38,084 nt of DNA from Pirellulales bacterium (GTDB taxonomy: Bacteria > Planctomycetota > Planctomycetia > Pirellulales > Lacipirellulaceae). The notes beneath the pieces were generated by a model. It saw only the letters and a list, made by a program, of their open reading frames with translations, had not been told where the DNA came from and did not search any database. The stretch lies in assembly GCA_022448345.1 (NCBI GenBank), contig JAKVCB010000023.1:1-38084 (forward strand). Reading direction: 5' to 3'. Shown piece by piece: positions 28,503 to 35,413 of this stretch; position 1 is the stretch's first letter, and each line of letters starts with the position of its first letter. Both the position numbers and the translations under genes were made by a program.

Positions 28503-28656
28503 TGATTTCTTTCAGTGACATGGCTGCACCGACTTCCGTAGGACAGAAGCAGCAGGCGGCTGGTAAACAGTACGAGCAGTAGAAAACCTGATAGTGTGAT
28601 GTGCCTGTGGAGGAAGTTCACGCAGATTGACTTGCACTGTACATGGAGCGGGCCCT

Positions 28657-30231
28657 ATGAATCGGCTTGACATGATATCACGACTTCGCTCTGAGTCGTT
28701 CGATGTTGCCATTATCGGAGGGGGTGCTACAGGGCTCGGTATCGCGGTCGACTCGGCAAGCCGCGGTTACCGCACCGCGCTACTGGAAGCACATGATTTT
28801 GCAAAAGCAACCTCCAGTCGTAGTACCAAGCTTGTTCATGGTGGTGTGCGTTACCTTGAGCAACTTGACCTTTCGCTTGTCACCGAGGCACTTCGTGAGC
28901 GGGGGATTATGTGTCGCAATGCCCCGCATCTGGTGAGCAATTTAGCCTTCATCATTCCCCAGTACAAATGGTGGGAGGGACCCTTCTATGGCGTGGGGAT
29001 GAAATTCTACGATGCACTTGCGGGTGAATTAAACATTGAGAAAAGTACCCGACTCAATCGCACAGAGACCATTGCTGCGATTCCGAATGTCCAGCAAGAA
29101 GGTTTGCTGGGTGGCATTAAGTACCACGATGGGCAATTTGATGATGCCCGCATGGCCGTAACCCTTGCCACCACCGCTGCCGAACAAGGTGCTGCAATCG
29201 CAAACTACCTCGAAGTTACTGGTTTTTTGAAGGAAGATGACACAGTCGTTGGAGTGGTTGCCAAAGAGAACGAGTCACAGGAAGAATTTCAGGTGCACGC
29301 GAAGGTGGTTGTTAACGCGACAGGTATTTTTTCGGACCGAATGCGGAAAATGGATGACCCGGATGCGGACGAAAAAATTGAGCCTGCACAGGGAGTTCAT
29401 CTTGTGCTCGACCGTTCCTTTTTACGCGGTGACAGTGCCATTATGGTGCCTCACACTGACGATGGGCGCGTGCTATTCGTGATTCCCTGGCACGATCGGG
29501 TTCTCGTGGGGACTACCGATACACCCATGCAACAGGCACAACTGGAACCGCGTCCCCTGCCAGAGGAGGTCGAATTCATTCTCAGAAATGCAGGACGCTA
29601 CCTCCAGAACAACCCTTCTTCCGAAGATGTGTTGTGTGCTTTTGCCGGTCAGCGTCCGTTGGTCCATCCCGGTGGTAAATCGGGGAAGACAAAGTCAATT
29701 TCGCGACGTCACGAAGTCTTTGTGAGTAGGACTGGCCTGGTGAGTGTGACTGGTGGTAAATGGACAATTTACCGAAAAATGGCGGAAGATGCGATGAAAC
29801 ATGTGATCGAAGTTGGCCAACTCGCTCCCCAGGATTGTTGTACCGAGCAACTTCACTTGCACGGTTATCTCGATCCAAGTTCTCTCGATTCCTTAGATCA
29901 GGATCATTTGCGTGCTTATGGGGCAGATGCCGAACAACTCAAGCAGATTGGTGAAAAAGAGCCCCGGCTTGCCAAAACATTGCATCCAGCTCTCCCCTAC
30001 ACTGGTGCTGAAGTCGCTTGGGCGGTACGTCACGAAATGGCAATCTGTCTCGAAGACATTCTGGCACGACGTACCCGGTCGTTACTGCTCGATGTTAAGG
30101 CCTCCTGCGAGGCAGCAGAGTCTGTTGCAGAGATTATGGCAAACGAACTTTCCTGCGATAACAAATGGGTGAGCAGTCAGGTTGCAGCCTACCGTGAATT
30201 TGCAGAGGGCTACTTGCTCAAAACCATTTGA
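28657..30231 (+). CDS. glpD: aerobic glycerol-3-phosphate dehydrogenase
   Basis: FAD-dependent, membrane-associated enzyme oxidising glycerol 3-phosphate to dihydroxyacetone phosphate and feeding electrons to quinone. The 524-residue product has the FAD motif VAIIGGGATGLGIAVDSASRG, then KATSSRSTKLVHGGVRYLEQ, PWHDRVLVGTTDTP, the substrate region FAGQRPLV, and VSRTGLVSVTGGKWTIYRKMAEDA, all GlpD-specific. The C-terminal helical DUF-like domain (YTGAEVAWAVRHEMAICLEDILARRTR) is complete. ATG 28657 has GGAG at 28645-28648; the ORF upstream to 28627 adds ten residues. No glycerol kinase or facilitator is adjacent. Confidence 0.95.
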   Translation: MNRLDMISRLRSESFDVAIIGGGATGLGIAVDSASRGYRTALLEAHDFAKATSSRSTKLVHGGVRYLEQLDLSLVTEALRERGIMCRNAPHLVSNLAFIIPQYKWWEGPFYGVGMKFYDALAGELNIEKSTRLNRTETIAAIPNVQQEGLLGGIKYHDGQFDDARMAVTLATTAAEQGAAIANYLEVTGFLKEDDTVVGVVAKENESQEEFQVHAKVVVNATGIFSDRMRKMDDPDADEKIEPAQGVHLVLDRSFLRGDSAIMVPHTDDGRVLFVIPWHDRVLVGTTDTPMQQAQLEPRPLPEEVEFILRNAGRYLQNNPSSEDVLCAFAGQRPLVHPGGKSGKTKSISRRHEVFVSRTGLVSVTGGKWTIYRKMAEDAMKHVIEVGQLAPQDCCTEQLHLHGYLDPSSLDSLDQDHLRAYGADAEQLKQIGEKEPRLAKTLHPALPYTGAEVAWAVRHEMAICLEDILARRTRSLLLDVKASCEAAESVAEIMANELSCDNKWVSSQVAAYREFAEGYLLKTI

Positions 30232-30396: not shown

Positions 30397-30432
30397 AAAA
30401 AAGCCTGCCCAACTTGTGTTGAGCAGGCCTTG
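30397..30432 (-). terminator. rho-independent terminator of the basic-repeat/PDZ gene
   Basis: On the minus strand the stem GCCTGCTCAAC/GTTGGGCAGGC, with loop ACAA and one G-T pair, is followed directly by six T residues. It lies 18 bases past the stop of the minus-strand PDZ gene. The plus-strand reading lacks a T-run, so it does not serve glpD. Confidence 0.92.
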
Positions 30433-30449: not shown

Positions 30450-31940
30450 CTAGTAAGACAATCGGTCTATTTGTTGTAGAGTGACATAAACCAGTGTTGG
30501 TTCATCACTGCCTTCACGAATCACTTCCAGTTCCAGGTGACCGCCGGAAGTTTGGATCGCGTAGGGTAAAACGGATTCATCTTCGATGCCTTGTCCATTG
30601 ATACTGACAATCAAGTCGCCCTGTCTCAAACCGGCAAAGGCTGCCGGGGAATTTGGCTTAACGTCTTGGACGCCATAAGCTGCCATGTCCGGGACTAAGA
30701 TGCAATCAATACCAAAGTACCAGCTGCTGCTCACATATCCATTAATCGGTGGACAGGAAATTACCTGGTACCGACATGGCGTCCAGCATTGCCAGTAGTT
30801 GGGGGAGTAACAGTGGTCCCACCAGTGACAATGGTTCCGCTGCCAGTGACCACCGATGACAAAATTAATCCACCAGTGACAACCTGAACGTAGTGACAAC
30901 CTTCGGATCGCAAAAGTTTTTGCCCGCCGTGCCTGGGGGACTTGGAGTTGTCTATTGCCGCTATTGCGTACATCACCGAACTTGCCACGGAACTTTTCAA
31001 GTTTCAGAGACCTGAACTTGCCTTTGCCATGGTGGTCGACCCAACGGTCGAAATTGCGGATTCCTTCCAGCTTGTTGGCATTACGCCGTTTGCGATTCTT
31101 GTCGATCCGGTTGGGGTTATATAAGTTGAGGTTGACGTTTCGAGGTGCTGTGACGGTGCCGTGTTTTGAGGCTCGTTCAATATCAGAAATCTTTGATTCT
31201 CGTTTGGAAATACGGTCTTTTAAAGCGCGCCTGGCGTCACGAACCCTGGCATCTCGCTTAGCGTCGCGATTTTTCGATTTTCGCTTGGGATTAGGATCTT
31301 TTGCAGCGTGCCTGGCGTCACGAACCTTGGCGTCTCGCTTGGCGTCGCGATTTTTTGATTTTCGCTTGGGATTAGGATCTTTTGCAGCGTGCCGGGTGTC
31401 ACGAACCTTGGCATCTCGCTTGGCGTTACGGTTGTTGGATACCCGCTTGGGATTAGGGGCTTTTGAAGCGCGCCGGTTGTCGCGAACCCTGGCATCTCTC
31501 TTGGCGTTGCGATTTTTTGGTTCTGGATTAGGGTTAGGGTGTTGTGAAGCGCGCCGGGTGTCACGGATTTTCGAGCTTTGCTTTGAAGAACGAACTTTCG
31601 AAGATCCTTTTGTGGGAGGGCTCTTTAATGATCGGCGAGAGGAGTGAACCTTTGAAGATCGTTTTGAGGCGGGCTGTTGACGAGTTGATGTGGATGAACC
31701 TTTTCTCGAAGACCGGCCCTCTTTACTGGAGTTCTTCGACGACCTGGAAAATTTTTTTCCAGATGAGGGTGCGCGAGACTTGTTTCGGACCTTTGTCGTA
31801 CGTGGTGGTTTGACGCCCTTCGACGACCGGCGTTGCTGAGAACTTTTCTGGCGAGAGTCCTTGGCCAGACTGACAGTTGCAGGTATTACCATCAGGACAG
31901 ATAACATCGCCACGGCGATCAAATAAATAAAACGGAACAC
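30450..31940 (-). CDS. secreted basic-repeat protein with C-terminal PDZ domain
   Basis: A 496-residue protein of unusual build. Residues 1-26 are a signal peptide (hydrophobic IYLIAVAMLSVLMVIPA, cleavage near SLA-KD). Residues 27-125 are Ser/Lys/Arg-rich and histone H1-like. Residues 126-260 are five 27-residue repeats beginning RDxRRAxK and ending NRxAKRDAKV. Residues 261-350 are basic. Residues 353-398 are packed with Trp, His and Cys (GCHWW, HCHWWDHC, QCWTPC). Residues ~405-490 are a PDZ domain (VPDMAAYGVQDVKPNSPAAFAGLRQGDLIVSINGQ). I infer an exported protein in which the basic stretch binds polyanions, such as acidic polysaccharide or extracellular DNA, and the PDZ binds a peptide or protein. 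No catalytic domain is visible. The gene ends at a clear terminator. Repeat number may vary between strains. Confidence 0.85.
   Translation of the reverse strand: MFRFIYLIAVAMLSVLMVIPATVSLAKDSRQKSSQQRRSSKGVKPPRTTKVRNKSRAPSSGKKFSRSSKNSSKEGRSSRKGSSTSTRQQPASKRSSKVHSSRRSLKSPPTKGSSKVRSSKQSSKIRDTRRASQHPNPNPEPKNRNAKRDARVRDNRRASKAPNPKRVSNNRNAKRDAKVRDTRHAAKDPNPKRKSKNRDAKRDAKVRDARHAAKDPNPKRKSKNRDAKRDARVRDARRALKDRISKRESKISDIERASKHGTVTAPRNVNLNLYNPNRIDKNRKRRNANKLEGIRNFDRWVDHHGKGKFRSLKLEKFRGKFGDVRNSGNRQLQVPQARRAKTFAIRRLSLRSGCHWWINFVIGGHWQRNHCHWWDHCYSPNYWQCWTPCRYQVISCPPINGYVSSSWYFGIDCILVPDMAAYGVQDVKPNSPAAFAGLRQGDLIVSINGQGIEDESVLPYAIQTSGGHLELEVIREGSDEPTLVYVTLQQIDRLSY
31161..31565 (-). repeat. coding tandem repeat, 5 x 81 bp
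   Basis: Five in-phase 81-bp units encode residues 126-152, 153-179, 180-206, 207-233 and 234-260 of the secreted PDZ protein. Units 3 and 4 are nearly identical in DNA; units 1 and 5 are more diverged, the pattern expected from recent central expansion. The mirror-image open frame on the plus strand is a by-product of the composition. Confidence 0.9.
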
Positions 31941-33515: not shown

Positions 33516-34171
33516 AAACGACTCCGCTTGCAAAACCAGTCGATCTTGTTCTCAACAGGACTGGGTTCCACTGGTCAGAACTTCCTGAAACACGGTCGGT
33601 CTAGTCCAACGGGGTAATTTCTGCGGAGAAAAATGGCGCGAGAAATGCGATGGACCGGTTGTCGTCTGGAAGAACACCGCGTACCGGTCGAACTCCAAGC
33701 CAAGACTTTTTTCCATCGCAACTTCGGTCGCCGCCAGTCGTAGGTTTCTTCAATACGGACTCCCGTCATAAAGATCTTTAGATTGTCTAAACCAAGCACG
33801 TAGAGGGTCAGGGTGCGCCAGTCGTGCCCGCTTGCCGGTAAGTACACCGGTCATGGTCAGCAACTGCCGAACGAATGCTCCATACGATTTTGTCCACCTG
33901 TTGGAATGACTCCAGCACGAATTCTAGGTTGTAACGAGGAGGGCTTGCAGGAGAGTGACAGGGTGGCACTAGCTAGCACCCGGCTCGCTAACCGATACGT
34001 ACCGAATATTCCATAAAATGCATCCAGTTATCCTAAGTAGTACAACAGTTCGTGGACGATAACGGGGGGGAGGGTCCAGGCCTCAACGACAGACAGCTGC
34101 TTAAGGAAAGAGTTGTTGGTCCGTTGCGGATGAGATGGGTGCCGTCCAGCTTTTCAACCAGCGCACAGGTC
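33516..34171. other. intergenic region, ~655 bp, possible degraded minus-strand gene
   Basis: No intact gene recognised. On the minus strand around 33554-33847 two overlapping frames read like one protein broken at an A6 run (33706-33711). The first gives TLYVLGLDNLKIFMTGV..YDWRRPKLRWKK, and the -1 frame then continues SLGLEFDRYAVFFQTT. No family was identified. Elsewhere only short chance frames are seen. Confidence 0.35.
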
Positions 34172-35413
34172 ATGGTCAAACTCAAATCTTCAGTCTTCGT
34201 GCCAGAGACCAGTTCTGTGGCACCCCCTCGATTGCTGATGACCGGGCTGCCTGCTTCCACGGCAACTGCTCCGCCACCATTTGATGTGGTTATCGTTCCT
34301 GACTTCATGGGATCCCAGGCACAGGTTCAGGAGGGGCAGGCCATCCTGTTTCTGTCCAGTTGGTTACAGCAATATGGGAACGAATCCCGGTTGCCCCTGC
34401 ACCTGGCTTGTATTGGGGAACCACCCGCTACGGTGCGTCGGTTGGCGGCCCGAGCAGGAGCAAGGATCTCTTTGCACGCACCGATTGGTATCCAGGATGG
34501 ACACCACGTAGGCAACAAGTTGCGAGGGTTGGAAGTTCCCGCTGAAACAAGCCAACGGTTGCTGCTAGATGTCGACACGTTGATCCTCAACGACATTTCA
34601 CCCTTGGGACACTGGACGTCGTGTCTGGCAGCTGCGCCCGACGATTGCCCCAAGGTAACCAACGCTCAGTGGAAGCGAATTTATCAGGGGTTGCAACTAG
34701 ATCCGCCACACAACCTCAGTCGCTGCCTCGCCGATGAGTTAGGATTGCCTAACTTTCCTGGACGCTGGTTGGGGTACAAGGTTCCGCGGTGGGAGCGAAA
34801 TGACTTGCTCCCCTACTACAACGGCGGCGCCGTGCTGGCGCCAGTCGATTGTGACCTGCGGGTGTTGTGGGAGCAGAACATCCGCAGAATAGCCGCCTTG
34901 TTTCCTCAGCATGAGGGCAAATTGAAGTCGATCCATACCAGTGATCAGGCTGGACTGGCAGTTTCGTTATGGCAACTGTCGCAGCAAGGCTGGTGTCTTC
35001 GGAGGCTGCCTGACTCCTTGAATTGTCGCTGGCGGAACATTTACGCCGAAAGTCCTTCGCTGCATGAGACGGGGGTATTGCACCTGACTACGTTTTTGTG
35101 CGACTTGCCCAAGGGGCCGGTCACTGACGACCGGCTGCAGAAGGCCGTGTCATCCTATCTTGGTCGAAAACTGGCACGGCGATTCAGCCGACTTCTTGTA
35201 GGAGAGGCCCTGCGCGGAACCCTCATGGCTGGCATGTTCCGTTTCGGTCAGGCTCGCCGTCAATGTCGCGAGTTGGAACATCACTTGCACAAATTGCTTA
35301 ACCAACATGTGTGGGATTGCGATGACACACCGATCAGCCAATATTCCAAGGACCGACAGGTACTTGGAAGTCCGCAGAGAAAAGACCAAAAATCATCAGG
35401 AGCCGCGGCCTAA
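34172..35413 (+). CDS. glycosyltransferase-like protein (GT-A fold, GT8-like DxD)
   Basis: A 413-residue protein that reads like a retaining GT-A glycosyltransferase. FDVVIVPDF is a donor-domain opening strand, RLLLDVDTLILNDISPL carries a metal-binding DVD, YYNGGAVLAPVDC matches the NGGxxL substrate stretch, and IHTSDQAGLAVSLW resembles the DQ motif of GT8-like enzymes. The acceptor is unknown. The first 30 or so residues are atypical and the start is uncertain; ATG 34172 was preferred over GTG 34052, and ATG 34130 is possible. The gene is followed after 22 bases by a GT2/GT7C-type glycosyltransferase, indicating an operon for polysaccharide or glycan synthesis. Confidence 0.7.
   Translation: MVKLKSSVFVPETSSVAPPRLLMTGLPASTATAPPPFDVVIVPDFMGSQAQVQEGQAILFLSSWLQQYGNESRLPLHLACIGEPPATVRRLAARAGARISLHAPIGIQDGHHVGNKLRGLEVPAETSQRLLLDVDTLILNDISPLGHWTSCLAAAPDDCPKVTNAQWKRIYQGLQLDPPHNLSRCLADELGLPNFPGRWLGYKVPRWERNDLLPYYNGGAVLAPVDCDLRVLWEQNIRRIAALFPQHEGKLKSIHTSDQAGLAVSLWQLSQQGWCLRRLPDSLNCRWRNIYAESPSLHETGVLHLTTFLCDLPKGPVTDDRLQKAVSSYLGRKLARRFSRLLVGEALRGTLMAGMFRFGQARRQCRELEHHLHKLLNQHVWDCDDTPISQYSKDRQVLGSPQRKDQKSSGAAA

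Follow-up and report, generated by a model that had tools for sequence, protein, structure and literature searches.

The planctomycete cell envelope is unusual, and the locus analysed here raises the question of what function could be served by an apparently exported protein in which a long basic tail, a patch dense in Trp, His and Cys, and a PDZ domain follow one another. The protein is encoded on the minus strand of the window, the whole 38,084-nt stretch of DNA that was analysed (contig JAKVCB010000023.1 of a Pirellulales bacterium), by an open reading frame (30450..31940) which starts with GTG, has AAGAAAGG upstream of this start and remains open throughout its 496 residues. The product has a predicted net charge of about +75 at pH 7 and a pI of 11.2. 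The following features, all on the minus strand, were delineated in and next to the gene:

30400..30431, minus strand: terminator-like hairpin with a T run directly after the stop codon (such sites are no commoner in the region than in shuffled sequences)
30450..31940, minus strand: whole coding sequence of the putatively exported polybasic PDZ protein, 496 aa (open reading frame and homologues)
30453..30725, minus strand: PDZ domain with a leading WYFG strand, residues 406–496, C-terminus LSY (Pfam, Foldseek)
30726..30884, minus strand: Trp/His/Cys patch, residues 353–405, consensus CHWW...CHWxDxC..PxYWxCW[TR]PC....CP (alignments, composition)
30888..31097, minus strand: helical module before the patch, approximately residues 282–351, common to the long-patch subfamily (alignments, AlphaFold2)
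31179..31583, minus strand: five 27-residue basic repeats, residues 120–254, with a DNA period of 81 bp (TRF, protein register)
31584..31862, minus strand: Ser/Lys/Arg-rich low-complexity tract, residues 27–119 (sequence composition)
31863..31940, minus strand: signal-peptide-like residues 1–26, ending SLA-K (judged by eye; relatives start alike)

The gene is real as judged from its sequence, and its frame is supported by homology to relatives from other families (54–56% identity over ~160 residues). Because it converges on a glycerol-3-phosphate dehydrogenase/oxidase-like gene (28627–30231) and is followed by the terminator-like hairpin, the gene looks monocistronic. An antisense open reading frame of 230 aa (30955–31647, plus strand) was rejected as a gene; it appears to be a by-product of the repeat composition, the conservation being confined to the minus-strand frame. 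Elsewhere in the window, a 453-aa open reading frame (34052–35413), located ahead of a family 2 glycosyltransferase gene, has no Pfam match at E<=1.

Searches with the patch and the PDZ domain but without the repeats retrieved a paralogue from the same genome (G000:C37, L034; 449 aa, E=1.5e-26), a relative from a Fuerstiella MAG (56% identity) and a distant one in genome G057. Wider searches added five strong patch matches within the order and a second subfamily, in which the patch is shorter. Altogether, about 34 distinct relatives were found, distributed over several planctomycete families, usually with one copy per genome and two in the genome of the window. Within one family (f15), 12 of the 241 genomes carry a patch-PDZ protein, as do many species of a genus from another family (g147, f21), although not every sampled species scored above the threshold. 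The window protein displays the characters of the group, namely, a WW/Cys patch immediately before a WY[FL]G-PDZ unit and a basic low-complexity tail with a pattern of export. In a 35-row tree, the long-patch clade (window, f15 and Fuerstiella-like proteins) is set against the short-patch clade, and the paralogue lies at the base of the former on a long branch. The paralogue had no match when compared with plasmids, and an exact DNA pattern of the patch, sought in 60 relatives, was found in the window only, the pattern being too strict. The initial annotation had overlooked both the paralogue in the same genome and the wide planctomycete family. Neighbouring genes are common only to close relatives, so that no partner is indicated by the gene neighbourhoods.

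The PDZ domain that had been recognized from the sequence scores above the curated Pfam cut-offs: residues 424–475 match PDZ_6 with E=8.7e-10, and the scores against PF17820, PF13180 and PF00595 (38.6, 32.9 and 26.5 bits) exceed the respective thresholds (27, 27 and 23.2 bits). The carboxylate-binding loop of the x-hydrophobic-G-hydrophobic type is retained across the family, as AYGV in the window protein and as ALGV, GIGI or GFGI in relatives. A Pfam scan detected no peptidase, and the description of the PDZ domain as regulatory is not supported, there being no enzyme domain in the protein to regulate. The C-terminal residue is F or Y in 29 of the 34 relatives, which suggests self-recognition or a folding constraint, as a lead only; self-binding is uncertain because the remaining five end in H, S or L.

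The patch is as dense as first described, with W, H and C accounting for 18 of the 46 residues at positions 353–398, and residues 351–405 contain six Cys, seven Trp and five His. In the long-patch clade, the alignment follows a pattern close to CHWWxDxxxGxxWxxxxCHWxDxCxxPxYWxCW[TR]PCxYxVVxCP, followed by WY[FL]G and the PDZ domain. In alignment A2, WW, SPA, GL and NG are invariant and the patch cysteines nearly so. The short-patch clade keeps the WW, most of the cysteines and the PDZ domain but lacks the patch histidines. The patch is fused to a PDZ domain in the relatives, and no strong match to the patch alone was found. In the AlphaFold2 model of the window protein (mean pLDDT 82), the PDZ blocks mostly reach 88–97, and the patch is predicted to form a helix and a strand beside the PDZ sheet. 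The strand arising from the patch end is modelled confidently, and pLDDT drops to 61–68 in mid-patch. The helical module preceding the patch (approximately residues 282–351) has pLDDT values of 55–64 in its first third and 76–83 in the remainder. A second model, of a short-patch protein, shows two strands and a WW helix ahead of the PDZ domain, with mid-patch values of 53–68. In both models, strands from the patch end adjoin the first PDZ strand, and the strand order suggests that the two pair. Alignments and models together indicate that the patch is part of the PDZ module. All the parts listed in the initial annotation are indeed present, but two features had escaped notice: the conserved helical segment that precedes the patch, and the fact that patch and PDZ domain are fused.

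Residues 1–26 (MFRFIYLIAVAMLSVLMVIPATVSLA) resemble, by eye, a Sec signal peptide, and a similar start is present in nearly all relatives whose 5' end is complete, in agreement with the export proposed at the outset. The following Ser/Lys tract had been likened to histone H1, a comparison that we do not retain, given the signal-peptide-like start of the protein and the lack of conservation of the tract. The five 27-residue repeats are in exact phase, as reported, with units starting at residues 120, 147, 174, 201 and 228; adjacent units are identical at 14, 19, 26 and 17 of the 27 residues, so that the middle copies are nearly the same and the first and last ones are degenerate (14–19 of 27). 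At the DNA level, TRF detects an 81-bp tandem array at 31195–31565 (4.6 copies, 83% matches, score 434). Yet the repeats do not define the family: the period is 27 residues in the window protein, 16 in L093, 7 in L092 and L035, 28 in L085 and 32 in L073 and L079, and several f15 proteins have no evident tail repeat. The 27-residue repeat is, judging from this comparison, a local, lineage-specific expansion. What the tail keeps across the family is positive charge and low complexity, not the repeat sequence. The polycationic character holds throughout, the net charge of the N-terminal part being positive in all relatives (+8 to +81, with the low values belonging to proteins that are truncated by a contig end or have a broken reading frame). 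Changes of linker period and sequence between lineages are as expected if charge and length alone matter. In the Fuerstiella MAG homologue, an array of 15-bp units passes into its own inverted copy (L031:3393–3763; 163-nt arms, 93% complementary), breaking the reading frame; the inversion is either real or an artefact of assembly.

None of the families in Pfam and NCBIfam, other than PDZ, matches any part of the protein at its cut-off, and our search of the literature on planctomycete PDZ or cysteine-rich exported proteins retrieved no paper on the patch-PDZ family. As far as the searched libraries go, the family and its domain order thus look undescribed, as originally suspected, with each part being of a known kind. 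The closest relatives of the PDZ domain by fold and sequence are those of HtrA/Deg proteins (DegP, DegQ, DegS, HtrA3), which provide the best Foldseek and HMM matches; the solved-structure matches cover the PDZ part only and are mostly to PDZ domains of proteases, HtrA/Deg among them. However, the window protein lacks the protease domain, has its own N-terminal tail and patch, and falls far below the NCBIfam cut-offs, with only the PDZ part matching the HtrA/Deg serine protease model (36.6 bits versus a cut-off of 416). By comparison, 88% of classified microbial PDZ proteins combine the PDZ domain with a protease, and planctomycetes are reported to be rich in PDZ proteins (PMC6411480). GspC/EpsC of type II secretion systems likewise represents an exported PDZ protein without an attached protease, but the match to its model is weak and limited to the PDZ part (16.8 bits versus an NCBIfam cut-off of 101.6), and no secretion genes were seen in the compared neighbourhoods. 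Short secreted WYFG-PDZ proteins of planctomycetes (172–206 aa) share the signal-peptide-like start, a His-rich tract, the WY[FL]G strand and the PDZ domain, but lack the Trp/Cys patch and occur in several copies per genome. Several such His-rich proteins are encoded in one planctomycete genome (L036:1959–2477, L037:1291–2743), pointing to a wider group.

Taken together, we infer that the protein most likely acts as an anchor and adaptor in the cell envelope and not as an enzyme, and we hold with moderate confidence that it is a PDZ adaptor which is exported, carries no protease and is held to polyanions of the planctomycete envelope by its tail. Conservation of the patch together with the PDZ domain in about 34 relatives, and an HtrA/Deg-type PDZ domain without a protease, support this reading, as do the signal-peptide-like starts, the positive charge of the N-terminal parts, the shifting linker repeats, the two models and the prevalence of F or Y at the C-terminus. 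The signal peptide would carry the protein across the inner membrane, and the long basic low-complexity tail would hold it to envelope polyanions, such as lipopolysaccharide or acidic polysaccharide, a role suggested by the persistence of charge where sequence does not persist. Disulphides probably brace the Trp/Cys patch, which would add a helix and a strand to the PDZ domain. The groove of this domain, with its conserved carboxylate loop, may bind the hydrophobic C-terminal peptide of partner exported proteins, or possibly the protein's own aromatic C-terminus; the PDZ domain of DegS is a precedent for recognition of C-terminal peptides, those of outer-membrane proteins (PMC7593790).

A role closer to that of the YTV wall proteins (PF07639), which also are planctomycete, exported and cysteine-rich, is possible but rather unlikely. 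The protein would then be a disulphide-linked structural component of the wall or matrix, with the patch linking proteins and the PDZ domain joining them head to tail through their own aromatic C-termini. The Cys/Trp/Tyr-rich patch, the apparent export, the low-complexity tail and the predominance of C-terminal F/Y are compatible with such a structure, and cysteine-rich wall proteins have been reported in the phylum (PMC8567305). Each of the eight genomes tested has YTV genes, and the 14 controls have none; together with the Fuerstiella record, this underlies the assignment to the phylum. In the genome of the window, several YTV genes lie outside the window (G000:C56, C79, C422). However, YTV proteins are reported to be general in Planctomycetales, so that the co-occurrence tells little. 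Moreover, the window protein has a single PDZ domain in place of repeated YTV domains, with no YTV match at E<=1, and the patchy distribution of the family within f15 is unlike that of a core wall part. An envelope-stress sensor, the PDZ domain of which would bind C-termini laid bare on misfolded outer-membrane proteins and hand them to a separate protease, would fit the affinity to the HtrA/DegP/DegS type and the binding of C-terminal peptides of outer-membrane proteins by the DegS PDZ domain (PMC7593790), but is improbable, considering that no protease gene is conserved alongside and no protease-contact surface was identified. Binding of zinc, iron or copper by the patch, in a metal- or redox-active exported protein, appears quite improbable. 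The abundance of W, H and C in the patch and the His-rich linkers of the short-patch subfamily speak for it, but the patch histidines are missing from that subfamily whereas the cysteines are mostly retained, which argues against a conserved His/Cys metal site as a reading of the metal binding suggested in the initial annotation. Furthermore, the cysteines are lost one or two at a time among relatives, and in a single case (L052) the second and fifth are both replaced by Tyr, a pattern more like that of a lost disulphide than of a metal site and in line with a bond between these two residues.

One could also picture a planctomycete-specific envelope polymer, in which each PDZ groove would receive the aromatic C-terminus of its neighbour, disulphides between patch cysteines would lock the chain and the replaceable basic tail would tune binding to the local surface polysaccharide, but we consider this scenario very improbable. 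The family represents an apparently exported PDZ type that lacks a protease and carries a conserved Cys/Trp extension, and it offers a target for asking what role protease-free PDZ domains may play outside the bacterial cytoplasm.
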